Of a DNA stretch of 64,000 bases, positions 29,546-59,180 are shown one piece after another; within the stretch, counting starts at the first letter, position 1; each line of letters opens with the position of its first letter. The stretch comes from Planctomycetaceae bacterium (GTDB taxonomy: Bacteria; Planctomycetota; Planctomycetia; Pirellulales; Pirellulaceae), in contig JAIYDN010000108.1 in NCBI GenBank assembly GCA_027487485.1, forward strand, positions 124,001 to 188,000, in the 5' to 3' direction. The translations under genes and the position numbers were made by a program. The notes below the pieces were generated by a model. The model worked only from the letters and a program-made list of their open reading frames with translations, did not search any database and was not told where the DNA came from.

Positions 29546-31522
29546 CTAGGTTGTGTTCAATAGATCGTCGGCGGAATTCGAGTCGGTCTCGGCACGCCTG
29601 ACAGAAGCGTCGTTGGAGCTGCCTTCTATGCCATTCTTGTACCGTTTGTAGTAGCTGTAAAGATTGCCTATCGTCATGCCAGATATCTTGGCGATGTCGG
29701 CCCACTTCATGCCAGAGTCACGCATCTGAACAATTTTTGGCCCCCATTCATCAACCTTGGTTGGCTTACCTAAATCGACGCTAAACGACTTTGAGGCAGG
29801 CCCTTCAAAAGTTTCGGATTCCAACATGCTCGCCGTCAATTGACCGCAATCGCTTTGCTCAAGAGCATTGACGAAGGCTGCATATCGGTTGAAGTCGAAT
29901 CGCAGTCGCATGAAGCCACGTTTCTTGGCAACGGCAAGGACGGGTTCTGCCGTGATTGTTTTGATCAGTTTTCGCAGCAGCAGCATGGACTCCGGCGATT
30001 CGGACTCAAACAATTCTGCCGTATTGAGAAGTTGCGATTGAATCCATTCCGGGCTTGGAAAACGGTTAAGAACGGACTTCCTTGCATCGGCATTCGCCCG
30101 TTCACGCTCCAATTCCTGGATCTGAGACGAAAGGGTCTTAATGCGTTCAAGAATGGCTCCGATATCGTGCGCCCCCTCGTACTCTAAAACCTTGATCAAC
30201 TTGTTCTTGGCACGTTGGCACTCCGCGATAGCGGCATCGATTCGAGCCTGATCGCTGGGTGTTTTCGCATAGACACGTTCAAGATAGGCCTTCACTTCAT
30301 GGTGGATCTCTTCGTAAAAACTTGGCTCATTTTTCAACTCATCCAACACAACTGCAACGACCCGTGTTCTTGCTAATTCGGCTGGCACATACGCGTGCAT
30401 GTCACAGCGTTCATCGTTCTTTTTTGCGATCGGGCAGATATAGTAGGGGTACTTCTTGTGACCTGCCTGATGCATTTTTGCTCCACAACCACAGGTGATT
30501 AGCCCCGACAAAATGTCTTGGGGGTAAACGTCAGACGGATGGGAACGAGGCCCGCGTTTGTCTTGGCTAGGCTTGAAACCAAACTTACCCTCTAAAGTAC
30601 GAAATCTTTCGCAGGCTGCATTCCAGGTTGAGTCGTCAATGATGCGGGCTTCCGGTCGCTTCATGATCACGTGTTCGCTCGGGTCCGTTTTCACTTGTCG
30701 CTTATTACCAGCGGAATCACGAATAGTCGTCGTCACCCCATATTGCCAAATTCCAATGTACTTCGAGTTCACCAGCAGGCGTCTGACCTGCTGGTGCGAC
30801 CAATTCGTGTCCTTAACACGATTGCCTCGTGGAATCTTGCGACGAGTGAACTCTCGGGCGATGCCGGCAAGCGATTTTCCACCAACAAACAGAGCAAAAG
30901 CTTCTCGAACGACTGCGGCTTGCGATTCGTCGATTTTGATACCCTTTCGCGGCTTCTGTCCTCGAGCATATTGCTCCATTGGATCGCCATCGACGTAAAA
31001 AGATTTGTAACCAAAGGGCAGATCGCCAGCGCTGAGTCCCGCTCGCACTCGTCCTTCTTTACCGCGTCGGACTCGTCTTGCCGTCTCTGCAACAGATGCC
31101 TTGTTGGACATCTGTTTGAAGGTCGTTGCCATTTCCCAGCCGACGTTGGTTGAGTCGATGCTCTCGCCGCACGCGATGAAACGGCCCTGGTAAAACTTAA
31201 TATCTTCGATGACATTTGTCGCATTATTTGCACGGGTCAGTCGAGACAATTCATCTACAACGAGTAACGCGACCAGCCCCCGTTTGATTAGCTTCAGCAG
31301 TTTTTGAAAGCCTGGGCGATCCTCTCGCGTTCCGCTAAGCCCCTCGTCGGTAATGACTTCAGCATTTGTGTGATCGATGCCTTCTCGATCGAGGTACTGT
31401 CGAATCTGTCTGATTTGATCTTCGCAGCTCTGTTCGTTCTGCATGTCTGTCGAATAACGAGCGTATAAGACCGTTACCCGTTTGGAATCGAGACTGGTTG
31501 CATTGTAATTTTTGGCAATCAT
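29546..31522 (-). CDS. Large serine recombinase, 658 aa
   Basis: Resolvase catalytic domain at about residues 15-160 with VTVLYARYSTD (catalytic Ser24), DEGLSGTREDRPGFQ and VVDELSRLTR. A recombinase domain follows at about 185-290 (DLPFGYKSF, IAREFTRRKIP, GIWQYG), then a zinc ribbon (LITCGCGAKMHQ, YYICPIAKKNDERC) and a coiled-coil stretch. The C-terminus carries an HTH-like segment (MRDSGMKWADIAKISGMTIG). Start at the ATG at 31522 (GGAAG upstream); the open frame extends further but is not domain-bearing. Site-specific integrase/excisionase of a mobile element. Confidence 0.92.
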   Translation of the reverse strand: MIAKNYNATSLDSKRVTVLYARYSTDMQNEQSCEDQIRQIRQYLDREGIDHTNAEVITDEGLSGTREDRPGFQKLLKLIKRGLVALLVVDELSRLTRANNATNVIEDIKFYQGRFIACGESIDSTNVGWEMATTFKQMSNKASVAETARRVRRGKEGRVRAGLSAGDLPFGYKSFYVDGDPMEQYARGQKPRKGIKIDESQAAVVREAFALFVGGKSLAGIAREFTRRKIPRGNRVKDTNWSHQQVRRLLVNSKYIGIWQYGVTTTIRDSAGNKRQVKTDPSEHVIMKRPEARIIDDSTWNAACERFRTLEGKFGFKPSQDKRGPRSHPSDVYPQDILSGLITCGCGAKMHQAGHKKYPYYICPIAKKNDERCDMHAYVPAELARTRVVAVVLDELKNEPSFYEEIHHEVKAYLERVYAKTPSDQARIDAAIAECQRAKNKLIKVLEYEGAHDIGAILERIKTLSSQIQELERERANADARKSVLNRFPSPEWIQSQLLNTAELFESESPESMLLLRKLIKTITAEPVLAVAKKRGFMRLRFDFNRYAAFVNALEQSDCGQLTASMLESETFEGPASKSFSVDLGKPTKVDEWGPKIVQMRDSGMKWADIAKISGMTIGNLYSYYKRYKNGIEGSSNDASVRRAETDSNSADDLLNTT

Positions 31523-31874
31523 TTGAAAAACTTCCGTGTATTGGATATTGGTTTGGAAAAATCGAGTGAAGTCCAATGCGATGTTGGATTTCGAAATCAA
31601 AAGCCGGCTCAGCAGCCTGCCTCCATGAACTTTTGACTGGTCTTGTTCGAACGCAACCGCCGACAAGGCGGCTCGCCGCGAAACGTGTTTGTTTGGTCGC
31701 GGCAGGCGTTGCCAACCAGGTGGAGGACGTGGCAAGAGTCCGGGACTGCTCGCTTGGAATTTCTGAATTTGGTTCATATTGGTAGGGTTGGTTTTGGTGA
31801 TCGAGTGTTGGCTGGGATAAGACGGCTTCCGAAACCTGTTGACGAGACTGTTCAAACAAGACTTGGTAAGAGCA

Positions 31875-32210
31875 TCAGACTGACGCCCCTTTCGTTGGGG
31901 CTTTGGCCTGACTTCTGACGTCGTTTGAATCTGGTTGTTCGGCCGGAGAATCGGCCAGCAGTAGATGCGAAGAAAGCTCGATAGCCTTGGCGAAGAGGTC
32001 TATTTTCCCCGATGCATCCAGAAGCGAAAAAGCGTCCAGAAGGAAGGTGACGGAATCGGACGGGTACTCTTCCAGGCACTTTTTCGCAGCATCTTTAACT
32101 ATCTGCTGCGTATTTCCGGACGGGCTCGGCACCAGATAGGTGTATTTAACGTAAGTTCTTTCGAACGCTGTATTTAGCGTACCAATCTGTCGGTCAGATT
32201 GAGCGATCAC
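31875..32210 (-). CDS. Possible small protein, 111 aa
   Basis: Frame with GTG start at 32210 preceded by GGAGGA at good distance. The product is acidic and helical in the C-terminal half (DSVTFLLDAFSLLD, IDLFAKAIELSSHLLL). Divergent from the tyrosine recombinase gene, sharing the 32223-32239 palindrome as promoter region. No family recognised. Confidence 0.4.
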   Translation of the reverse strand: MIAQSDRQIGTLNTAFERTYVKYTYLVPSPSGNTQQIVKDAAKKCLEEYPSDSVTFLLDAFSLLDASGKIDLFAKAIELSSHLLLADSPAEQPDSNDVRSQAKAPTKGASV

Positions 32211-32222
32211 AAACCAAAGTTC

Positions 32223-32239
32223 CTCCGTAAATTACGGAG
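32223..32239. promoter_or_regulatory. Palindrome between divergent element genes
   Basis: CTCCGTAAATTACGGAG is a perfect 8+1+8 palindrome, 20 bases before the integrase ATG and 13 bases before the GTG of the divergent frame. It is a candidate operator, and its arms supply GGAG for both directions. Confidence 0.55.
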
Positions 32240-32258
32240 ATTCCAAGGAATCGCTCAA

Positions 32259-33473
32259 ATGGCATCAAAAAAGGTACCGTCTTATACCCTTCACAAAGCA
32301 AGTGGAAGGGCCGTTGTCCGACTTTCCGGTAGGGACCACTATCTAGGTCCCTACGGCACTCAGGAAAGTCACCAAGCCTACAATCGGCTTATCGCGGAAT
32401 GGCTATCTACGCAACGGTCAAAGCAACCAACCAAACCCAAATCACTACAACAACTCGACGGTATGCTGGTCGTTCAAGTAATTGATCGATACCGAACGTT
32501 CGCCGAGACGTACTACGCTAAGGATGGCAAACCAACCAAGGAATTCGAAAACCTAAAGTACGCCTTGAAGCCCCTTAGGGAGCTGTACGGTTCCACGCCT
32601 GCTCGCGATTTCGGTCCTAAAAACCTAAAGGCGATGCAGCAGCATTTCGTGGCTGCAAGAATCTGCCGAACTCAAATAAACAAACGCATTGATAAAATCA
32701 AGCGAATGTTCAAATGGGCTGTTAGCGAAGAACTGGTCCCGCCCACAGTCCTTGAAGGCCTTCGATCTGTTAATGGACTTCGCTATGGCCGGACTGATGC
32801 TGTCGAGCTGCCACCAGTGACACCGATCGACGATAAATGGGTGGACGCCTGCCTACCTTTCATGTCCAAGGAGGCTGCTGCCATGGTGCAGTTGCAACGA
32901 CTCGCAGGGATGCGTCCGCAGGATGTGGTTGCGATGCGACTGGACGAACTCGATCGAACAGGAACCGTTTGGATCTACAGTCGCCAAGAACATAAGAACC
33001 GTTGGCGAGGCCACGATCGAAATATCTATCTTGGCCCGAAGGCTCAAGCCATTTTGAAACCATTTATTGATGACATCGGGGATTCGGTGTTCCTGTTCAG
33101 CCCTAGGCGGGCGGAAGAACGGAGGAACTCGTTGAGGAAAGCTCAACGCAAGTCGAAGATTACTCCGTCGCAAATAGCGAGAAAGCCGATTTCAAATCCC
33201 AAAAGAGCAAAAAGGGAATCTTACGACGTCGCTAGCTATCGCAGAGCAATCAAATACGCAATCAAGTCCGCTAATAAAGCCCGACAGTCCGAGGAGCAGA
33301 TACCTGAATGGTATCCGCTCCAACTTCGCCACTCGTGTGCTACACAGATTCGTAGGGTAGCTGGTCTTGAGGCCGCTCAGGTGACACTTGGACACGCTCG
33401 AGCTGACATAACCCAAATCTACGCTGAACGCGATCAGCAACTCGCGTTGCAGGTCGCTCAGAACTTTGGATAG
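32259..33473 (+). CDS. Tyrosine recombinase/integrase, 404 aa
   Basis: N-terminal SAM-like core-binding domain (about 65-160) and a C-terminal catalytic domain (about 190-400) with RLAGMRPQDVVAMRL (first Arg), LRHSCATQIRR (HxxR box) and LGHARADITQIYAE (catalytic Tyr). ATG at 32259 with AAGGAA ten bases upstream. Cuts and rejoins DNA at attachment sites. It faces away from the serine recombinase, so the region may be two nested elements. Confidence 0.9.
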   Translation: MASKKVPSYTLHKASGRAVVRLSGRDHYLGPYGTQESHQAYNRLIAEWLSTQRSKQPTKPKSLQQLDGMLVVQVIDRYRTFAETYYAKDGKPTKEFENLKYALKPLRELYGSTPARDFGPKNLKAMQQHFVAARICRTQINKRIDKIKRMFKWAVSEELVPPTVLEGLRSVNGLRYGRTDAVELPPVTPIDDKWVDACLPFMSKEAAAMVQLQRLAGMRPQDVVAMRLDELDRTGTVWIYSRQEHKNRWRGHDRNIYLGPKAQAILKPFIDDIGDSVFLFSPRRAEERRNSLRKAQRKSKITPSQIARKPISNPKRAKRESYDVASYRRAIKYAIKSANKARQSEEQIPEWYPLQLRHSCATQIRRVAGLEAAQVTLGHARADITQIYAERDQQLALQVAQNFG

Positions 33474-33522
33474 CACGAGATGCAATTAACACTCGGGAGA
33501 AATAAATCTCTACCAGACAACA

Positions 33523-33555
33523 CAGGGCCTTGGGCGAAAAATGCCAAAGGCTCTG
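33523..33555. terminator. Hairpin between convergent genes
   Basis: CAGGGCCTTGGGC / GCCAAAGGCTCTG around GAAAAAT, with one mismatch and one G-U pair. It lies between the ends of the integrase (plus) and the AAA gene (minus). No long T-run, so a weak terminator call. Confidence 0.45.
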
Positions 33556-33576
33556 CAATCCTGAATTCCATAAGTA

Positions 33577-34830
33577 CTAATGCTGCGGTGCGCTGGTCAC
33601 CATGGTTTGCAGCAATCTGTAGCCATCGTACAGTCGTCCATTTTTACGGGCTACAGCATCTTTCTGCTTGCATATCGTGCCTCCTCCTAAAAGTTCGCCG
33701 AGCAACCGTGTGCAGAGCGAATTGGTGAGCTTCAGACGGTTTCTGATTTCCGTTTTCATCATGATTTCCCCAATTGGTTGATCTTCCAGTAGTTGAATGA
33801 TGGCTGCTTTGTCTCTTCGATCCTTATCTCGGACTTTATGTTCATGGTCGCCTGATTCATCCAAAGACAGCTCCGCGGTGTCGCGGTCCGGATCAACATG
33901 AATCGTGCAGGACAGACGAGTGAGCCGATTTTCTTCAAATTCTTCAATAATCTCCACTCGCTCTTGCCAAAAGTGGCCTTCGGACCCGCCGACGGACATG
34001 TCAATTTTATGCCGACGTTGCGGGCCACCCGAAAACTTACCAACCCGATTCATTAATATCCACTGGCGGAAATATGCCGCTTTTCCGGCGCCGCATAGAC
34101 TAGCCAATGTCGGATTGCTCTTTTCGCGAGCGGCAACACGAAAGTGGTCAACGCCAATAAAGGTTATTCCGCGGTCTTCGTAGGGTTGCGTAAGCTGCTT
34201 CAATTGACGCCCGTTGTTGATTATGCTTGCTTGCTCATCGTTCAACGAGAGGTACAGCGGATCGAGAATCACCACTTCTGGTTCGTGGATGTCGAGCTGT
34301 GCTTCGACAGCCACCAACGTTGAGGGTTCCGAAAAATTAGGAACTTCAGTTGTAATCCAAAGCTTATCTCTAATCGAATCAGAAGACAGATGATTGGCTT
34401 TCAACCAGGCATTCACCGTAGCCCAAACCTTTGAATGCCCGGATTCGCCGCACATTAGCAATACACGGCGAGGCACTGGAATTCGATATACACCCAGAAA
34501 ATTTTGGCCAGTGACAAGTGACAGTGCCATGCTAGTGGCAAGTGTTGTCTTCATCGATTTGTATTGAGCACCTAGGATGCAAGGTTGCTTTTCAACAAGG
34601 GTATTCTCGATTAAAAACTTTGGGGGCTTGTAAGACTGACTCATCTCGTCTGGTGACAAGAACCTTAGCCCGGGATAACTAACCAGCAGTTCTTTTGAAA
34701 GTTGGTTTGTAGCGAGCGCTCGGAGAGTTTCAGGATCGTGCTCCACGGGTGGATCGTCAGAGACGACAACCGTGTAGGGCTGGGAACCTAAATCCATCTC
34801 AACTGGTCGGGATATTTGACTTGCGTTCAT
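33577..34830 (-). CDS. AAA (RepA/AAA_25-type) replicative ATPase, 417 aa
   Basis: RecA-like ATPase with Walker A GAQYKSMKT at residues 87-95 and Walker B VVILDPLYLS, the pattern of RepA/DnaB-type hexameric helicases of the AAA_25 group. The last 90 residues look like a winged helix (AAIIQLLEDQPIGEIMMKTE). AGGAGAG lies seven bases before the ATG. Third gene of an operon HTH - prim-pol - AAA, with gaps of 23 and 17 bases. Likely replicates the element after excision. Confidence 0.88.
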   Translation of the reverse strand: MNASQISRPVEMDLGSQPYTVVVSDDPPVEHDPETLRALATNQLSKELLVSYPGLRFLSPDEMSQSYKPPKFLIENTLVEKQPCILGAQYKSMKTTLATSMALSLVTGQNFLGVYRIPVPRRVLLMCGESGHSKVWATVNAWLKANHLSSDSIRDKLWITTEVPNFSEPSTLVAVEAQLDIHEPEVVILDPLYLSLNDEQASIINNGRQLKQLTQPYEDRGITFIGVDHFRVAAREKSNPTLASLCGAGKAAYFRQWILMNRVGKFSGGPQRRHKIDMSVGGSEGHFWQERVEIIEEFEENRLTRLSCTIHVDPDRDTAELSLDESGDHEHKVRDKDRRDKAAIIQLLEDQPIGEIMMKTEIRNRLKLTNSLCTRLLGELLGGGTICKQKDAVARKNGRLYDGYRLLQTMVTSAPQH

Positions 34831-34847
34831 TTTTGCTCTCCTAGTTG

Positions 34848-35759
34848 TTAAATGTTTTCTTTGCTGCGAAGCTTGTTAACGAGCTTGGCCAGCGACCAAT
34901 TTACATGGCCGGATTCTGGTGATAGATCGCCAGCATTGGTTGAGAAAACGGTAAAAATCTCCTTGCCGTCTTCGAGGGCTGTGTTGAATTTCCCAGAGAC
35001 GCCGCCGGATTTACCGGGCCTGGCGAAAGATTGATTGTCTGCAGTAGTCCATCCACATTTTATAAGCTCTTGTCGTGCAAGTTCACCCGTCACAGGAGTA
35101 GCCGTACGACTAGCATGACTCCGGGATGTGTACCGTTCAATTGATGACTTAAGTAGCTTCTTTCGCTCAGCTTCAACCTTTCGATCAGTGTTGTCGAATG
35201 CAAGACAGCATTGCCAAATGTGCACACGCTCCTCCTGCGTAATCAGCGGTATACGCGGAAAATTCGGCCATTGACGGATGGCATACAAATTACCAGACCT
35301 GTGTGTTGAAGCAGCCGAACCTGGTGCGATGGTGTAAGCCCCTTCGCCACGCGATTCTATCCGTACCTTGCCGTTTTCGTCGTGCGCAATCTTCATACTC
35401 GGGCTGACGATTGAACAGCGGGTCAAAATATGCATGCCGCCACTAGGGGTGGCATTGATTACAAGTCGCGATCTCAGCGTAGGATCAATTTTTTCAAGCA
35501 AGGCCTCGACGCATTGCGGGTCGTCGACGTCGATTGTCTCCTGGCCTTGCGATATCGATCCGTTGATCAACGCAAACGCGTCGTATCGTTGCTCCCAATC
35601 CTTTATTTCATCCTCCCTAGCCCGTCTTTTCTGGTAGTCCAGCCAAGGTTCAGCCGCAGCTTTTGTACCGTCGGATCGTATGGCTATCGGATTTAGTCCC
35701 GCTTCCCAGTACTGTCGAACCGGGCTTTTTTGAATACGTGAATTCTGCTGTATAGTCAT
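34848..35759 (-). CDS. Bifunctional primase/polymerase (prim-pol), 303 aa
   Basis: N-terminal prim-pol domain at about residues 15-190 with GLNPIAIRSDGTKA, INGSISQGQETIDVDDPQ (the metal-binding DxD) and ATPSGGMHILTR (the His-containing motif). The C-terminal part is a shorter helical region. Element-encoded priming enzyme, next to its helicase. AAGGG stands seven bases before the ATG. Confidence 0.88.
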   Translation of the reverse strand: MTIQQNSRIQKSPVRQYWEAGLNPIAIRSDGTKAAAEPWLDYQKRRAREDEIKDWEQRYDAFALINGSISQGQETIDVDDPQCVEALLEKIDPTLRSRLVINATPSGGMHILTRCSIVSPSMKIAHDENGKVRIESRGEGAYTIAPGSAASTHRSGNLYAIRQWPNFPRIPLITQEERVHIWQCCLAFDNTDRKVEAERKKLLKSSIERYTSRSHASRTATPVTGELARQELIKCGWTTADNQSFARPGKSGGVSGKFNTALEDGKEIFTVFSTNAGDLSPESGHVNWSLAKLVNKLRSKENI

Positions 35760-50963: not shown

Positions 50964-53287
50964 TGTTCAATGACCAATTCCTGGGCGAGACATTTGTGAT
51001 TCGCATCGTTCTTTCGCTACTTCACTCCAGTTGGCAACTTGGGTTGGTTGCTGCTGTTGCGTACGCATTGATTCAATGTTCACGAACGGCGAATGTTCGG
51101 TACGCCATTGGCGTTTACTCGCTTGCATTGATGACAGCTTGTCCATGCATTACGTTTTATTGGCTATCGACTCAGGCGTCCCCTTCAAGGACGATGCACA
51201 CCGAAATGACGAATGACCACGCAGTTAGTCTTGCTAACGCTCGGTCTCGGGGGCCAGAGGCATTGACACCGGCCCTCTCGATCGAATCGGCTGACGTCAA
51301 CTCGACTCAAAAGCAAAGCGTATCGCTATCTGCATCAGCCTCGAGAACGAAGCAATCTCCCATCGGATCCGCGATTGCGCTCGCATCACCGGGGATATTC
51401 GTGCTTTATACGTTCGGTATGTTCGTAATGTTTTCTAGATTGATGTTGGCTTGGATCGGTACATTCCGACTTAAAAGATCTTCCGTTCCTATCAGAAGTG
51501 AACTTCTGTTGGAAGCATTGGCGATTGCTGCGAAAAGGGTCGGCGTTCGAACGCTTCCGTCCATATTGCATTGCGGCAGAGCGATCGTTCCTGTGGTGAC
51601 TGGCATCATTAAGCCGACAATTCTTCTGCCTGCGTCCATGTTGACTTCGCTCAGTGTCAGTCAGCTAGAAGTAATTCTAGCCCACGAACTGGCTCATGTG
51701 CGGCGGCTGGATACGGTTGTGATCGCATTTCAGCGTTTGGTCGAAGCCGTATTGTTCTTCCACCCCGCTGTTTGGTTGATTAGCAATCGAATCAACGCGG
51801 AACGCGAGCAATGTTGCGATGACTTGGTAGTACGAACTGGTTGGAACGCAACGGTTTATGCAGATGCACTGATTCGAGTTGCCGAGCTCTGCGATCAGCC
51901 CACTTCGCCAAGTGGTTTGATGGCTGCTGCATCGGGCGGTTCTCCTTCGGAACTGAAGCGGCGCATTATGAAACTGCTTGATCCTGAATCCAAAAATCTG
52001 CGATATGGATTTCGAGGTGGCGAAGTATTCTGCTTGGCTGCGATGCTTTCTATCGGAGCCATGGCCGCACTGTGGATAGATCGCGCCATTGCTTCCCCAC
52101 AAAAGAACATTGGTCTTCGAATGGTCCCTGTGACCGTCGTGAATGGCGATACAGGCAAGCCAGCGAAGAATGTACGGATTGAATTCAGCAACGACAAATC
52201 GGTTGTTGAAACATTGACTGACGAAGATGGTCGAATCCATTTGTCATTGGAGCCAGGCAAGTACAAAGTCAACTATCTGGTTGAGTACGGCACGCCCTAC
52301 GTTTCCAGAGATTCTCAAGAGGATGGAATCGAATTTGAGGTATCAAGTCGAGATGGTCAGCAGTCGACTCTGGAGATTCGCCTTGAACCAGCTGCAACGG
52401 TCGACATCCAAATCGTGGACGAAGTGACGGGTCTTCCGCTTGAGGGAGTCGACATTCGATATCTGATGAACGACGAACAAGTCCCGCGTGAATACGCGTG
52501 GCGATCCTACCAGGCCCCCAGCTCTGTGATGGTTGACAAGCCTCGGACGGATTCTAAAGGGAAGATGCGAGTCTTCTTCAAGCCCGGACTGGTAAGCATT
52601 TTCGCTGGTGGGGAGGCGATCCCAAAGGGTTACTATTCGTCGGCAAGGAGAATTCAACTGGCCTCGGGCGACCGGAAGTCATTGACAATAGCGATGGGGA
52701 CCACGGCACCATTTAGAATAGAGTTGAAGCAACTCGACGAAGAACAGATTCGCTCGCTATCCAATTCCGTAGATTTGCAAATCAAAGATCCCGAGAAAAT
52801 CTACATAAGAGCCATTCCGACAAACCGCCCGATGGAGTTCATGTGGAGGGTTCGTGTTCCAAAGAATTTCCAACCCGGTTACAATGTAACAACCGAAGGT
52901 GGAGGTTCTACCGGAAGTACTGTAGTTTCACCGAATTCTAGCCGTGCGCGCGATTTCGTCTTGCATGCCAATTTGCATACCAATTCGAAATTCATGGTTT
53001 TCGAATCCGTCGCTTCACCCTCATCAAATGGCATTTCTGCCGTTGCTTCCCAAAGTCTGCTGCACAGTAAAAGTCGAATTCGCTTGATCAACGAGCCAAC
53101 GAAAATCGAAGTGAAACAGATTGGATCGGTGATCCAAGAGGAATTTTCCATTGAACAGGAAATCAAGCTTCTAACGATTCATGCAAAGCCAGATGATTCT
53201 CAAGAGGGAACACAAGAGATCTTCGGCTATTCGCTTTTACCGCCCGGAAGTAGCAAACTGCAACATTCTCATCCTGCCGCTCGGTAA
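50960..53287 (+). CDS. BlaR1-type M56 membrane protease with extra C-terminal domains, 775 aa
   Basis: Four membrane helices in the first about 360 residues around the zinc motif HELAH (242-246) and EREQCCDDLVV. After the last helix (about 350-370), instead of a penicillin-binding sensor, there are beta-rich domains of carboxypeptidase-regulatory-like type (VTVVNGDTGKPAKNVRIEFS, GRIHLSLEPGKYKVNYLVEY; second about 475-560). So the signal sensed is probably not a beta-lactam; no beta-lactamase gene follows. Partner of BlaI upstream. Confidence 0.88.
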   Translation: MMFNDQFLGETFVIRIVLSLLHSSWQLGLVAAVAYALIQCSRTANVRYAIGVYSLALMTACPCITFYWLSTQASPSRTMHTEMTNDHAVSLANARSRGPEALTPALSIESADVNSTQKQSVSLSASASRTKQSPIGSAIALASPGIFVLYTFGMFVMFSRLMLAWIGTFRLKRSSVPIRSELLLEALAIAAKRVGVRTLPSILHCGRAIVPVVTGIIKPTILLPASMLTSLSVSQLEVILAHELAHVRRLDTVVIAFQRLVEAVLFFHPAVWLISNRINAEREQCCDDLVVRTGWNATVYADALIRVAELCDQPTSPSGLMAAASGGSPSELKRRIMKLLDPESKNLRYGFRGGEVFCLAAMLSIGAMAALWIDRAIASPQKNIGLRMVPVTVVNGDTGKPAKNVRIEFSNDKSVVETLTDEDGRIHLSLEPGKYKVNYLVEYGTPYVSRDSQEDGIEFEVSSRDGQQSTLEIRLEPAATVDIQIVDEVTGLPLEGVDIRYLMNDEQVPREYAWRSYQAPSSVMVDKPRTDSKGKMRVFFKPGLVSIFAGGEAIPKGYYSSARRIQLASGDRKSLTIAMGTTAPFRIELKQLDEEQIRSLSNSVDLQIKDPEKIYIRAIPTNRPMEFMWRVRVPKNFQPGYNVTTEGGGSTGSTVVSPNSSRARDFVLHANLHTNSKFMVFESVASPSSNGISAVASQSLLHSKSRIRLINEPTKIEVKQIGSVIQEEFSIEQEIKLLTIHAKPDDSQEGTQEIFGYSLLPPGSSKLQHSHPAAR

Positions 53288-54099
53288 TTCCAACGTTGGG
53301 GTCGATTCACCGTTACAGGATTCGGACATTTGAAAAATCTAAATCTCCTCAAAACCTATCGTGCTAGTCAAAATTGTGGCCAAAGTCCGTTGCTTTTCCG
53401 CAACCGCCAACCTGCTCCGGTTTTACACGCGTTTGACACGCCGGAGCGCGCGTGAGGACTTCTTGATTGCGCGAACGGGAAGATTTTAGGCCCAATTGCG
53501 GTCGCCGTTCGTGCCCCAGGACGAACCGTCCTTAGATATCAAGTTACTCAGCACCGGTTTGACACGCCGGAGCGTCGAATCGGAAGAACCAGCTTTTAGA
53601 AGAAGTGACTGACAAATCGGACTTGGCCCATCGAGTACCCGTGCTCTCCTGGCCTAGCCTGACTGCTGTCTTCCCGCATAGTTCACTGCGGGGCCGTCTC
53701 GGTACGGTCGCTGAGAATAATTCCGGAAAGCCTAGTTTGCAGAAAACTGGCGGACAGCAGGGCTGCCATCTCGCCAGTCGAACGAGCGATGGAAAACGAA
53801 CCTCCGACTTTGCCGCCGTCTGTTTAGGCTCGATACCGTCGACTAAGTCGCGGAGCATCTGGGTTCGCTGGCCTTTGCAGTTACGTGCTGCATCAGCTGC
53901 GATCTGGAGTGCCATGGACGCAAAGTGTTCGCCACTGCCCTCGCCACAGCTTTTCAGAAGTAAATGTGCTTGTCCGTTCGTGGCCAGGATTCGACGTCGT
54001 GTTGGATAACCTCACGTGTCTCCCATGGTTCGTAATGCGGTTGTACCACGGAATGGGCGACAGTCCGTCCGACGAGGTGTTGGGACCGTTCCTCTACTC
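53288..54099. other. Non-coding region before the RT operon terminator
   Basis: Frames on both strands (for example 53605 plus, 53544 minus) are not protein-like. TTTGACACGCCGGAGCG occurs twice (about 53429 and 53557). Nothing else recognised. Confidence 0.5.
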
Positions 54100-54147
54100 A
54101 AAATACAAAAAATACGGCGGCCAACGCACAAAGGTGCGGGCCGCCGT
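54100..54147 (-). terminator. Strong terminator of the RT operon
   Basis: ACGGCGGCC (54114-54122) pairs perfectly with GGCCGCCGT (54139-54147) and inside CGCAC with GTGCG around AAAG. On the minus strand ATTTTTTGTATTTT follows. Defines the 3' end of the operon transcript about 160 bases after the RT stop. Confidence 0.92.
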
Positions 54148-54330
54148 CTAAAAGCAAAAAAGCCTCGATATTGCCCAAAAAGAGCGGTGCCGACCGGTCG
54201 GTCTGGCTCAAAAGCCCATATGGGATCCCTGGGAGAATACACCATATGTTGCCGTACTCGGTAAGGTCGATATCCTGCGTGGTTAGGTGAGGGTTATCCG
54301 TCGAACTCCCCTAGGGGTTACCGTCGAAAT
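54148..54330 (-). ncRNA. Candidate structured RNA downstream of the RT
   Basis: Between the RT stop and the terminator lie perfect palindromes CCGACCGGTCGG (54190-54201), CCCATATGGG (54215-54224), GGGATCCC (54222-54229) and, over the RT stop, CCCCTAGGGG (54308-54317) flanked by two CCGTCGAA copies. Transcribed with the RT if the terminator is used. A non-coding template/primer RNA is an inference by analogy with other RT systems. Confidence 0.4.
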
Positions 54331-55639
54331 TCCACTGTAGCCACTCCGGGTTCCCAGGTGGAGACATCTCCGGGTTTACCACCCTTCGATCGCCTTCACC
54401 ATTCCATCTTCCACCCGCTAATTCCCATTGTCTTAGGATGAGATTTTGGTCCGCATCCGTTACTTCTGAGCCAGCCAGTAGGGTCGTGAGAACCTCCATG
54501 CAGTATTCTCGTCCAGCAGTAGCGTATACGTGTCCTGTTGATGCTGCATAGCTTATCAGAGCGTTTCTAACCTCAGATCTAGGATCTGGTGCAAGAACTA
54601 GCCTTCTGATGCCATCTGTGACTCTGGCAAGTCTCCCGGGCATAAACCGGAATATTACTCGATTGTCTTCTACCGTTAGTTGATTTCCCAGTACCGTGGT
54701 TTGGGATCCTTGTTGCCTTAGATCTACGGGTGGGGATTGTGAGCTGTAGGATAATCCTGCAGAACCTAACGATGTCGTGTGCATCTGTATTGACGTGTGT
54801 ATCAACTGCTCTTGATGTGATATGTACGCGACGTTATCGACATACACCAGTGGGTTCAAGACTCCCACTCCTTCTGACAGATTGGCATTCTGCTGAAGGC
54901 ACGCGTTCATTGTAAGCGTAAAAAGAATCGGTGAAAATGGATGGCCTTGCGCCAGTCCGATTATTTCGCCCGACGCACCATGGGGGGTCATAATCTGCTG
55001 AAGTGTGTTCACTACTTCTGGCCTGAACCCCATTTGGTGTAATACGCTGGTTACTGCGTTCAGCCGTACATTGTCAAATGCTCTCGCAACATCGACTTCA
55101 TGCGCGAAAAGGGGCTGCCCCGGCGGAGCCTCCAGCACAGCCCGCTCTACTGCTTTCAAGAACGTCCGCACACCGCGGTTGGGTAGCGATCCATGAAAGA
55201 TTGGGCCGACTAGGCGTGCAACGGCTCTTGTTAGATAACTAGCCGCTGCACCATGCACGATTCGCTCGATAAGCGGGAGCAGCCGAAGCGTTCGCACACG
55301 ACCGTCGGGACGGGGAATATCAACCTGTCTGAGCCGGCTCGGTCCATACTGCCCCGCGTGAATCGCTGCAATGACAGGGCGACACAGTCTTGCCACATCA
55401 GCACGGAAAAGATGACGAAGCTGCACGCCGTCGACTCCTGCTGCGTTACCCATGGTGTTTCGCATCGAGTCGAACCAGTTCAACGTGTTTTCGAGACCGT
55501 ATAGCACGAGTACCGTAATGTCGTCGATTAGCAACGGTAGCGTCTGATGCAGGCTCGTCGTCTGTCTCGTATTGCGAGACGGATCACGCATGCCAGACGA
55601 TCCCTCGTTCATTTGATTGAAAGCTGTACGTCTAGACAT
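54311..55639 (-). CDS. Divergent reverse transcriptase, 442 aa
   Basis: RT palm motifs in order: IPRPDGRVRTLRLLPLIERI (motif 1/2), AHEVDVARAFDNVRL with catalytic Asp183, GLAQGHPFSPIL (QG and SP, as in group II-like/Abi/UG RTs), then LVYVDNVAYIS. The normal YxDD box is YVDN here, with Asp268 kept and Asn269 replacing the second Asp. N-terminal extension of about 65 residues and a C-terminal thumb-like helical part of about 150 residues. No maturase, endonuclease, Cas1 or nitrilase domain. Its ATG overlaps the end of the upstream pseudo-helicase gene by eight bases, so the two are co-translated. Group not assigned. Confidence 0.85.
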   Translation of the reverse strand: MSRRTAFNQMNEGSSGMRDPSRNTRQTTSLHQTLPLLIDDITVLVLYGLENTLNWFDSMRNTMGNAAGVDGVQLRHLFRADVARLCRPVIAAIHAGQYGPSRLRQVDIPRPDGRVRTLRLLPLIERIVHGAAASYLTRAVARLVGPIFHGSLPNRGVRTFLKAVERAVLEAPPGQPLFAHEVDVARAFDNVRLNAVTSVLHQMGFRPEVVNTLQQIMTPHGASGEIIGLAQGHPFSPILFTLTMNACLQQNANLSEGVGVLNPLVYVDNVAYISHQEQLIHTSIQMHTTSLGSAGLSYSSQSPPVDLRQQGSQTTVLGNQLTVEDNRVIFRFMPGRLARVTDGIRRLVLAPDPRSEVRNALISYAASTGHVYATAGREYCMEVLTTLLAGSEVTDADQNLILRQWELAGGRWNGEGDRRVVNPEMSPPGNPEWLQWNFDGNP

Positions 55640-57119
55640 TTCGCACGACTCCTTGATTCTCTTGGATCAGCAGTCGACGAGCCTGGTCGAGCCAGTGCTG
55701 TTGTGCGTCCACTGCTGCTGGTAGGTAGCCCAGTTCTGCATAAGCGCGCCGACGTTCTCGATTCCAGCCTCCCACGGTTTGCAGAAATTCAGAATGAGCT
55801 CTATTGTTCGATTGCGGAAAATCTTGGATATCGACGATGCTGACGTCAACTCCCAGAGGAATCCTGCCCGACAGCGTGCGGTAAAGATCTAGAAATGAAG
55901 CTCTGGAGCCAGCCCACACAATCTTCGTGTTGCGATCGATCGTGATACCAGAAAGCTCTGCGGATGTGACGGTTTGAATTTCTGGAGCGTTTTCGATCGC
56001 CCTAGTCCCTGCGACAAGCTGACGGAAACCATCGACCGAACGCCGACGAGCAAAAACAAGAACGATGTTGTCTATACCTGCTCGGAAATTCGGTCGGACA
56101 ATCAACTTGTGGATCGCTCTTAGTCGTCGGTTTTCTGCGTCTAGTGCGTCGACAAACTCGAAGTCGTTGTTGAGCACCAGGTTTCCACTGACATTCCAGT
56201 TGATGTTGGCAAATGCGATACGGGGCTGGGGGAGAATTCTCGCTCCACGCGTTAGAATGCCCCTGGTGAAGCCTGCGTATTCAAACAGACGAGGCTGCCA
56301 CTTGGGATCGACCGCTACGCTGTGACTGGCACATACGATGATTCTTGTGTAATCTCGAGCGTCGTTAAAGTAGTTGAAAAGCGGTTCGGCGAGCAAGAGT
56401 CGCTCGTCGACAATGAAGATAAGGTCAAACTTCCAAACCCCACCTATTTCGTTATTATTCGCAAGCGACGTTGGCGTCCCGATGATAACTCGTCGAAAAT
56501 TGAGTCCAGGCCTTCTTCTTGAGATTTCGTTGTCCGGTAGCGTCTCAAATGCCACAAATGAGTTCGAACGAACAAGTCCTCGATCAATTTGACGTTTGAG
56601 CTGCCAACAAGATTCGCGATTTGTTGTCAAAACAGCGACTCGGGCTTGGGGGAAATCCTCCGCCGCTGCGGCTATTAACGTACCGATACTAGCATGGCTG
56701 GAGTACTCTATCAAAGAATGCTGATTCGAAAGGATGAAATCTTGCGAGGCCAGCGGAAGGCGTCGGGATGTAGCTTCGCCCGCAGAATTCGATTCGACAT
56801 TTGCTTGCAGCCTTCCACCCGCTTGTTCATCACTCGACAAGTTCGTAACTTGGCTGGTTTGAAGCGGTATGCCTCTGCTCGCAAGCTCTCTCTCAACTAG
56901 CGAAAACAATGGACGTCGGAAGTATGGTTCAGCGGCAGGAATGTCGCTATAAATCATGGTTTGTCGCGTTCGACGAACCTGGGTGCCTGCCCCAGACCGA
57001 ACGGTTGTGTATGCCTTGCTTGACATCGTGAAGGGCAACTGGCCCTCGATACCAACTGACTGATGAAAAATGGAAAGTGAAAACGGATCACCTCCTGGTT
57101 GTAGCTCAATTTGAGACAT
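55632..57119 (-). CDS. Degenerate SF2-helicase-like protein, 495 aa
   Basis: After about 120 unstructured residues, two RecA-like lobes can be traced. Motif Ia VAVLTTNRESCWQLKRQI (161-178), Ib VIIGTPTSLANN (211-222), II FDLIFIVDER (231-240), III IVCASHSV (261-268), IV IVLVFARRRSVDGF (352-365). The Walker A position (about 138-147, IEYSSHASIGT) lacks the GKT lysine. Asp238-Glu239 remain. So ATP hydrolysis is doubtful; it may bind nucleic acid for the RT. Start at ATG 57119 is preferred; an open frame reaches 57371. First gene of the RT operon. Confidence 0.7.
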   Translation of the reverse strand: MSQIELQPGGDPFSLSIFHQSVGIEGQLPFTMSSKAYTTVRSGAGTQVRRTRQTMIYSDIPAAEPYFRRPLFSLVERELASRGIPLQTSQVTNLSSDEQAGGRLQANVESNSAGEATSRRLPLASQDFILSNQHSLIEYSSHASIGTLIAAAAEDFPQARVAVLTTNRESCWQLKRQIDRGLVRSNSFVAFETLPDNEISRRRPGLNFRRVIIGTPTSLANNNEIGGVWKFDLIFIVDERLLLAEPLFNYFNDARDYTRIIVCASHSVAVDPKWQPRLFEYAGFTRGILTRGARILPQPRIAFANINWNVSGNLVLNNDFEFVDALDAENRRLRAIHKLIVRPNFRAGIDNIVLVFARRRSVDGFRQLVAGTRAIENAPEIQTVTSAELSGITIDRNTKIVWAGSRASFLDLYRTLSGRIPLGVDVSIVDIQDFPQSNNRAHSEFLQTVGGWNRERRRAYAELGYLPAAVDAQQHWLDQARRLLIQENQGVVRNV

Positions 57120-58262
57120 AGATCTAAAACTCTTTTGACCAAGGACAAAAACAATAAACGCCTGAAGCGGCAGCAGAAGCCGTTGTAGAAGACTCAGAAG
57201 CGGGCAGTACACCCTCTTCAGATCCAGGTTATTAGCAGCAGTTGTGCGATAGCGGTGACCCGCGAAAGAGCACAACCCGGTTTTTGTTTTGCGATCCCGA
57301 CAGTTTTGGCAGCCGGCAGATCGAGGTCGATCGGATGCAAACTGCGTGCCGGGTATTATTTTGACACCCAAGCACGATTTGTGTCGGTATAATCAGCCGA
57401 CAGCGTGAATGTAGTGCAAGGTCAAAGTGATGCAACCCTGGAAATGCGAAAATGTTGAAACAAACCTTTGAAGCGGATTGCGAACCTTGGCTGCCAGGCT
57501 GAGCTCGAAAGGAACATCAGAGGGAAGATCTCGCAGGTAGCAAGGAGTCGTTGCACTGGATGCCCCTTTTTCACGAAGTTCCTGATGATCCTGCTTCATG
57601 GTCGTCACGTCCGATTGCCGTCTCATTTTATTGGCCCCGTACACAGGGACGATTGCGCCGGCGTCATCGACTCACCAGTTTTCTTTAGCGACAGAGATAA
57701 GAGATGCAGAAACAAAACTGGGAACTGTCCATTTTGCTAAAGCCCATTGCACTTTCAACGCAGGTGGGCACTCGTCGATGGAGGCGGCATGTAGCGAACG
57801 CTCTAGCTATGGCAAACCTCTTCAGCACTATCGTCAGCCAAAGTGCCTCGGCTATGCCACCGATCGTCTCAATCACTCGACACAGGTAGACGCTTATGGA
57901 GAAAGACTGCGTGAGCTCGGTAGTTGCTTACCTCGAGCACCTAACGACTTGGTTCAATCCGAGATCCCTGATAATGAATCGACACTCGGCCAGAGTAGAC
58001 AATTACTCATTTGACGCAAATATTTCGCACACGTTGATCCCTTTGGCGAGTGCTGAACAGTGTGTACAGCATGTGTGGAACAATCGCATGGGACAGACAA
58101 CTAGCCCAGAACAAGTAGCCTTCAACCACAGTGTGCACCAGATCTAAATGGCAAAATGAATCGGCATTCGTACTACAAAAAGAGTAACTGGTTACTCAAT
58201 TTCCGCAAAAGTTTTGCATCAACTGACTCGACGTCGCGACTGGAAAGTGCGATAAAACATGA
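57120..58262. other. Non-coding region between RT operon and HTH gene
   Basis: No convincing gene (a possible 83-codon minus frame at 57393-57644 has no pattern). Holds the promoter region of the RT operon, which I could not pin down; a TTGACA (57361) and TATAAT (57388) on the plus strand are 21 bases apart, too far for a normal promoter. Confidence 0.45.
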
Positions 58263-59180
58263 ATGGCAAAAGAGCACTCAACCTCCAAAACACGCAGGAA
58301 AGCCGTTACGATGCTTCGCAGGGGCGTACCCATTGCAAAGGTTGCCGTCAAGCTACAGGTCAATCGAACAACCGTATTGCGATGGCATCAGCGATATAAA
58401 GAGGATGAAGTCGCAGGACTGGACCAACGGGCCAGGAGCGGCCGACCGCGTGTAAAGTTGCCTACATCAGCGGCGAACGTCAGGTCGATCATTTTGAAGC
58501 CTGCTTTGAAGAATGATGGTCATCCGCAGCTCTGGACAGTAAGTCGGCTTAGCAAATCGCTATCCAAGAAACGAGGATCTAAGACATCCGACAAAACGGA
58601 CACGCTACGTCGCCGACTAGCCGAGGTCGGCATTGAACACCCGAAGCCGGCAAAAAGCGTGCGAGACGCTTACCGAGCAGCTTTGGTTCGATGGAATTCC
58701 ATCGCGAAGGAAATACGTACGGCCGTGAAGAAAGACAATTCAAGGCTCTTCGCGATTCGAGAAGCCAAGGTGTTCGTCGAACGCCTGGCTGGTGGACCAG
58801 AGGACCTCAAGCTATCAACCCGCCCAACCGGAAAAAGAGACGACCGTGAATACGTTGATACATTGTTTGCAATCAGCGATAAACGTCGGCTTGTTTTCCA
58901 ATTCTATCCCAAACAACCGAGCGATGCGGATATTGCCAGCTTCGTACAACGACTGTACGAACGCAACAAGAGAAGGCCTTTGGCAGTAGTTTTATCGTAT
59001 GCATGCAAACGCAAGAGTGTCATTAAGCATTGTGCTGAGGACAAATGTCCCCGACTGAGTCTGTACGAGATTCCAACATTAGCCAAGGCGAAAGCATCGA
59101 AGAAGAAGACCACAAGGCTGGATCGAGAAGTCTACGTCGATTGTTGCATCGCAAAGCTGTTCAATAAAAGAACTCGGTGA
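58263..59180 (+). CDS. IS630-type HTH transposase-like protein, 305 aa
   Basis: N-terminal helix-turn-helix of IS630/Tc1 type (RRKAVTMLRRGVPIAKVAVK, NRTTVLRWHQRYKEDEVAGL, DQRARSGRPR) and a second winged-helix-like part (WTVSRLSKSLSKKRG, LRRRLAEVGIEHPKP). The C-terminal half should hold DDE residues, but LFAISDKRRLVFQFYP and PLAVVLSYACKRKS show no full DDE set, so it may be inactive or divergent. No terminal inverted repeats were detected by eye. Confidence 0.7.
   Translation: MAKEHSTSKTRRKAVTMLRRGVPIAKVAVKLQVNRTTVLRWHQRYKEDEVAGLDQRARSGRPRVKLPTSAANVRSIILKPALKNDGHPQLWTVSRLSKSLSKKRGSKTSDKTDTLRRRLAEVGIEHPKPAKSVRDAYRAALVRWNSIAKEIRTAVKKDNSRLFAIREAKVFVERLAGGPEDLKLSTRPTGKRDDREYVDTLFAISDKRRLVFQFYPKQPSDADIASFVQRLYERNKRRPLAVVLSYACKRKSVIKHCAEDKCPRLSLYEIPTLAKAKASKKKTTRLDREVYVDCCIAKLFNKRTR

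Follow-up and report, generated by a model that had tools for sequence, protein, structure and literature searches.

A planctomycetal reverse transcriptase paired with an SF2-like pseudo-helicase: probably an undescribed anti-phage system

A conserved two-gene reverse transcriptase operon

We analysed a 64,000-nucleotide stretch of DNA from a Planctomycetaceae bacterium (assembly GCA_027487485.1, contig JAIYDN010000108.1, positions 124,001 to 188,000; hereafter the window) and focused on an operon in which a reverse transcriptase (RT) gene follows a gene for a protein that resembles superfamily 2 (SF2) helicases and lacks their ATPase motifs. The pair is probably an undescribed RT-based system, for which we infer an anti-phage role. 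The explanation we favour, and judge moderately likely, is an unnamed two-subunit, sometimes fused, RT family in which a probably active YxDN RT acts with a pseudo-helicase clamp, travels as cargo of genomic islands and serves in anti-phage defence.

An earlier note on this DNA had placed an RT gene and a partner gene here with an 8-bp overlap and a single strong terminator behind them. Both open reading frames (ORFs) were found, with the partner upstream and the RT downstream, and a folding test bore out the terminator (-27.3 kcal/mol, z -5.0, none of 200 shuffles equal), which a simple terminator scan did not flag. An in-frame TTG at 57371 provides an alternative partner start, yielding 579 aa. 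The features of the operon are as follows, the motif coordinates having been derived by hand from the ORFs.

55632..57119, minus strand: partner gene (upstream), 495 aa from ATG, putative two-RecA-domain pseudo-SF2 helicase
54311..55639, minus strand: RT gene (downstream), 442 aa, reverse transcriptase of the group II lineage, motif C YVDN
55632..55639, minus strand: overlap of the partner and RT reading frames, 8 bp
54108..54147, minus strand: strong intrinsic terminator 3' of the operon, from folding energy against shuffles
56670..56714, minus strand: degenerate Walker A region, partner residues 136-150, from an alignment of 18 partners
56394..56408, minus strand: remnant of motif II (DERLL) at partner residues 238-242; four of the 18 partners aligned retain DE
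55091..55093, minus strand: catalytic Asp of RT motif A (D183), shared by all 19 RTs aligned
54833..54844, minus strand: RT motif C YVDN, residues 266-269, from an alignment of 19 RTs

Besides the window's own proteins, the protein database held four partner and five RT relatives. The contigs of P0002 (one pair member) and P0007 (the other) are equally long (83143), which suggests that both lie on one contig; the pairing of the remaining database relatives was not visible. A family-level genome search recovered a distant pair from the window's genus (G020), and alignments including it opened further searches. Match rates varied with the profile, and every count includes the window's own genome: the earlier profiles matched that genome alone, both among 99 relatives and among 392 genomes of the phylum, and other rounds matched 3 of 241 genomes of the family (one spuriously), 11 of 396 of the order and 6 of 324 of the phylum. 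Across the class, the partner was matched in 34 of 268 genomes; loci were read for 30 of these, leaving G072, G1005, G1018, G1052 and some extra rows (second copies, fragments) without loci. Judged by their size and gene content, the matched genomes are probably Planctomycetota.

The partner and RT genes stand in tandem at 13 of 16 loci read, the others comprising a partner at a contig end (G743), a locus cut by a contig end (G621) and an RT beside a truncated, convergent partner-like ORF (G489). The earlier note would have abandoned its reading had RT homologues mostly stood without the partner. They do not: 13 of 15 family RTs have it directly upstream, G489 and G621 being the exceptions. 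In the 14 pairs made up of the window and these 13, the genes overlap by 4 bp in ten and by 8, 8, 11 and 17 bp elsewhere; the pairs of G234 and G411 also overlap by 4 bp. About 0.5 kb separates partner from RT in G167 and G277, and in G312 an RT lies ~0.4 kb beyond a partial partner. The G167 and G277 gaps each contain a small ORF of 159-167 aa (L092:9286-9765 and L093:9417-9920), the G167 copy of which has no Pfam match.

Among 20 newer loci, an RT adjoins or is fused to the partner in 15 (gaps up to ~505 nt). In G970 the RT starts ~1.3 kb downstream of the partner, and the fetched flanks of G975, G1000, G955 and G982 hold a partner without an RT, the G1000 match containing stops. Three loci encode partner and RT as a single fused ORF: G1055 (928 aa), G948 (996 aa) and G920 (998 aa). 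Taken together, a same-strand RT comes next after the partner at 34 of 39 examined partner loci, with gaps up to ~510 nt. These 39 are the window, the 13 pairs, five further loci (G234, G411, G167, G277, G312) and the 20 newer ones; G743 and G621 (contig ends) and G489 (found RT-first, with its truncated convergent partner) were left out. The ratio is 29 of 34 once the window is excluded along with G490 (two loci), G632 and G577, which were set aside because they had been fetched via an RT found first.

The ratio of non-synonymous to synonymous substitution rates (dN/dS) between close relatives, the window copy excluded, is 0.17-0.29 for the partner (four locus pairs) and for the RT (four locus pairs), and both genes are under purifying selection in these relatives; the comparison between the partners of the two G490 copies was saturated. 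Because the pair is conserved in many genomes and dN/dS is this low, its association is not due to chance.

The partner had no match in plasmid and phage collections up to E 1, and the RT had only distant matches in plasmid (577) and phage (7) records, none covering 80%. Viral contigs gave no match with close alignments. A match in G569 was dropped, as it lies on the opposite strand of a 435-aa ORF that reads as a radical-SAM protein, and two loci with weak Cloacimonadota RTs, from the genome contig search, were rejected, these RTs grouping with ordinary RTs in our tree.

The partner is a predicted SF2 fold without ATPase motifs

The 495-aa partner belongs to no family in Pfam, PADLOC or PHROGs; its single NCBIfam match is sub-threshold (PhnH, 14 bits), and the window sequence alone has no PDB sequence match at E up to 10. 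The family profile matches RadD (E 7.6e-4), and a Foldseek search with the predicted structure returned a DEAD-box-like SF2 fold (E 6e-10). The RecA-like fold, on which the earlier note had made its reading depend, is thus supported by comparison of a predicted structure and by the RadD profile match. The AlphaFold model has a mean predicted local distance difference test (pLDDT) score of 50.9, its confidence being low except at residues 141-270 and in parts of the second lobe.

As had been proposed for the window protein, the order of SF2 motifs is discernible and the Walker A lysine is missing: a GK[T/S] P-loop is absent from the aligned Walker A region of all 18 partners compared, and the Walker B DE is retained in four. 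The only GKT string among the later loci (G920) sits in what reads as the motif Ia region. The partner family therefore appears to have one hallmark of active SF2 helicases, namely two RecA-like lobes in SF2 order, and lacks another, the combination of Walker A GK[T/S] and Walker B DE.

The reverse transcriptase belongs to the group II lineage and carries an altered motif C

The window RT is the sole RVT_1 match of its genome (Pfam; 45 bits against a cut-off of 29.6) and scores 66.6 bits with the TIGR04416 group II maturase model, far under the 300-bit cut-off. The PDB sequences nearest to the family RT profile are group II intron RT/maturases such as the GsI-IIC RT (169 bits, positions 49-368). 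None of the named defence-associated RT (DRT) or unknown-group (UG) profiles in PADLOC 2.0.0 fits the window RT, in agreement with the earlier expectation that the pair matches no named DRT type: the best, UG21, reaches 25.9 bits over ~58 residues, and the generic RT model 61 bits. When 19 family RTs were compared with PADLOC, the best named models were Drt9 (E 6e-18) and UG4 (E 1.3e-14), and generic RT models reached 4e-37.

The motif C of the window RT, a feature absent from the earlier note, reads YVDN instead of YxDD. We aligned 19 RTs, 14 from loci and five from the protein database. All of them share the Asp of motif A, the QG of motif B and the first Asp of motif C; the second motif C position is Asn in 18 and Asp in G577. 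Among the 15 RTs adjoining or fused to a partner in the last search round, 11 have DN and four DD. YxDN thus characterizes the majority of family RTs, and a second group has YxDD, several of its members with RNase H. Pfam detects RNase H after the RT in G801 (DN) and G577 (DD), and the domain can also be read by eye in the RTs of G167, G277 and G621.

In a tree of 45 RTs, the 26 family members (19 with partner adjacency shown, five context-free database proteins, G489 and G621) split from 19 other RTs at 100/100. The six DD rows group as a clade (100/99) and support for the 20 DN rows is 85/92; none of the 19 non-family RTs has DN in motif C. Long branches leave the details of this tree unsure, and its root is not fixed. 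A YxDD ancestor bearing RNase H is possible. The RT of the second G490 copy (L048:5494-6642) has a C-terminus that diverges from the family past motif C in a frameshift-like manner. The AlphaFold model of the window RT has a mean pLDDT of 48.9 and was left out of the fold search.

The pair resides in genomic islands of several relatives

G632 and G234 come from different families; their operon regions are 92.5% identical over 4570 nt, and their collinearity stops at a copy of the tmRNA 3' end. An intact tmRNA lies on the same strand ~40 and 45 kb upstream, respectively. From the 3' part of this tmRNA onwards, identity between the two genomes is 96.9% over 1569 nt, compared with 77% over 142 nt in its 5' part, which indicates a transferred tmRNA island. 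G411 shares the right end of this island, and in all three genomes the pair sits at the island end. Directly after the tmRNA in G632 and G234 is a gene for a 608-aa putative recombinase, so assigned by reading its sequence, Pfam seeing a helix-turn-helix (HTH) alone (L113:1279-3105 and L114:1177-3003). Similar-looking proteins of 581 and 607 aa are encoded near the pairs of G081 and G167 (L077:17554-19299 and L092:301-2124), and of three scanned proteins of this type two have a C-terminal HTH in Pfam and the third has none; they are possibly an unannotated recombinase family. At the first G490 copy and in G065, a tRNA-Arg stands beside an integrase-like ORF, assigned by Pfam Phage_integrase in G490 and by sequence reading in G065.

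Seven of ten hand-picked island or neighbour proteins match PADLOC models (mad7, mad8, UG33 DRT, CARF, two methyltransferases (MTases) and PDC-S68). The UG33 match is a second RT in the G632 tmRNA island (L113:6204-8135, 415 bits) with mad8- and mad7-like genes beside it, so that one island carries two distinct RT systems. Some copies of the pair have MADS-, Lamassu-, restriction-modification- or DRT-like genes in their vicinity. In an unpicked set of 76 proteins encoded no more than 16 kb from ten loci (77 before one very long ORF was removed), models for a type I restriction endonuclease (REase), a type I MTase, LmuA, LmuB and mad2 matched at E <=1e-30. REase_I, MTase_I, LmuA, LmuB and mad2 have one member each, and the mad2 and MTase_I matches may be one protein, which corresponds to three to five proteins, most likely four. 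Among 76 random control proteins (reduced from 79 through 77), one RtcR-type protein matched, the three RtcR models most likely representing a single protein.

Other neighbours recur. Of 17 loci, five have a MerR-like family (below the Pfam cut-off) and three a ParB-like one; a DUF1016_N-like family occurs in four genomes, and a DUF5906/Toprim-like protein is encoded near the G020 pair. An AAA ATPase, a DUF1257-like protein and unknown proteins form a recurrent set near the pairs of G032, G435, G490, G510, G632 and G081, joined in three by a PD-(D/E)XK nuclease.

In the window itself, an ORF resembling IS630-type transposases lies upstream of the operon (58263-59180). ORFs resembling serine and tyrosine recombinases, together with AAA- and primase-like ORFs, occupy 29546-35759, ~20 kb from the pair. 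All these were assigned by sequence reading; the latter region is a possible mobile element.

RNA and repeat signatures

Rfam gave no match in the window at gathering thresholds, nor any in 53000-58400 when E values up to 10 were allowed, so that no group II intron RNA was detected at the locus; L052:6500-7700 yielded three chance-level matches only. In two close groups of loci, 100-290 nt 3' of the RT stop are as conserved as the coding part. We do not consider a shared non-coding RNA (ncRNA) to be established there, since the regions of the two groups match neither one another nor other fetched loci, their fold z-scores are weak (-1.4 to -1.6; 0.1 for the window's 3' region) and part of the conserved region is terminator-like; we keep it as a lead. 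A diversity-generating retroelement was rejected, the longest direct repeat pair in 53000-58600, the stretch searched, being 23 nt.

Discussion

The conserved pairing, the three fusions, the kept polymerase Asp residues and the lost ATPase motifs lead us to propose that RT and pseudo-helicase work as one machine, presumably a physical complex. The RT would be a polymerase of the group II intron lineage freed of intron RNA, with YxDN replacing YxDD. It is probably active, because it retains the Asp of motif A and the first Asp of motif C, with altered metal use or an altered product. The partner would derive from an SF2 helicase, with both RecA-like lobes retained and the residues for ATP hydrolysis gone; it is most likely a constitutive nucleic-acid-binding clamp by which the template, primer or product of the RT is held or selected. 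The pair appears to move as cargo of mobile genomic islands, near defence genes in some genomes, and this setting makes an anti-phage function our best guess: like other DRTs, it would most likely protect through DNA synthesis, presumably upon a phage trigger. More tentatively, and with rather less confidence than even, we suggest a new class of RT immunity in which an ATPase-less former RNA helicase stands in for or complements the usual ncRNA by clamping the template or primer, YxDN gives an unusual DNA product, and the whole is sometimes a single polypeptide.

Several observations weigh against this explanation. Mean pLDDT is low for both AlphaFold models (partner 50.9, RT 48.9), and whole-chain structure matches of the partner have TM-scores of ~0.25 with large root-mean-square deviations, leaving its lobe orientation unsupported. 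Four of the 39 partner loci have no RT within ~1.3-1.5 kb, and in one more the RT is ~1.3 kb off. The enrichment of PADLOC matches among neighbours is small, ~4 of 76 against 1 of 76, and amounts to a trend only. No ncRNA common to the family was found. No island border was found for the window copy: the window contains no tRNA, no tmRNA and no copy of the tmRNA 3' end, and a search for an empty site at its locus found none, an orthologue of the flank being present and synteny absent. Defence is the role favoured by the islands and the neighbouring defence genes, though the control for this is weak. The earlier interpretation is hence supported in part only: the tight coupling holds, across 34 of 39 loci of which three are fusions, beyond what had been guessed, while the role, phage defence or a domesticated retroelement, is one we still infer.

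It is unlikely, in our estimation, that the pair instead serves a mobile element, in its maintenance, replication priming or island regulation. The recurrent MerR- and ParB-like neighbours, the DUF1016_N-like family, the DUF5906/Toprim-like protein by the G020 pair and the island-end position in G632, G234 and G411 would suit such a role, but neither the MerR- nor the ParB-like family occurs at 11 of 17 loci (some on short contigs), and the tmRNA islands have another candidate recombinase, by its sequence, directly after the tmRNA. We find it harder still to credit a domesticated or still mobile retroelement whose RT and partner copy or splice their own RNA in the manner of a group II intron. 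The lineage of the RT, the RNase H on several family RTs and the multiple copies or fragments in some genomes (two in G490, several in G1046 and G065) are in keeping with it; however, the window locus lacks a group II intron RNA or other Rfam family, the genome of the window has this RT as its single RVT_1 match, and the two G490 partners are just 56% identical, unlike the products of recent retrotransposition.

With Asn at the second Asp position of motif C in 18 of 19 RTs and GK[T/S] missing from all 18 Walker A regions aligned, both subunits could also be pseudo-enzymes that form an RNA-binding scaffold without polymerase activity, by analogy with Prp8 and Brr2, to which an RT with an SF2-derived subunit is comparable in outline. 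We regard this as very improbable: all 19 RTs keep the Asp of motif A, the QG of motif B and the first Asp of motif C, and the polymerases of negative-strand RNA viruses, which carry GDN, are active.

The family appears unnamed so far in the sources that we searched. We found no published description of an RT with a pseudo-helicase and none naming an SF2-fold partner for a DRT or UG RT, in a literature search of partial coverage whose results did not include the UG/Abi and DRT screens. To our knowledge, no DRT or UG class is paired with an SF2-fold protein. The family resembles those classes in joining an RT to a partner gene and in the defence genes near the pair in several genomes, and differs in that no UG model fits the window RT and generic RT models outscore named ones among 19 members. 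DRT10, according to the parts of the source available to us, consists of an RT with a SLATT partner and an ncRNA (PMC12632851). From group II introns the pair is set apart by its YxDN motif, its pseudo-helicase partner and, at the window locus, the missing intron RNA and an RT under the maturase cut-off. The group II-like class G2L5, which includes RTs of Planctomyces maris and Blastopirellula marina and is unplaced in trees, likewise has RTs without intron RNA; the portions of these papers that we consulted describe no helicase partner, and G2L5, compared by description only, could be kin (PMC4244168, PMC8934634). With DEAD-box, RadD and XPB helicases the partner shares putative RecA-like lobes in SF2 order, but it lacks the GK[T/S] P-loop, and the Walker B DE persists in only 4 of 18 members.

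Since YxDD has here been replaced naturally by YxDN, what the second catalytic Asp does can be tested in a living RT family. The partner would be an instance of an SF2 motor converted into a structural subunit. If the immune function proves true, the pair would add a new architecture to the DRTs.

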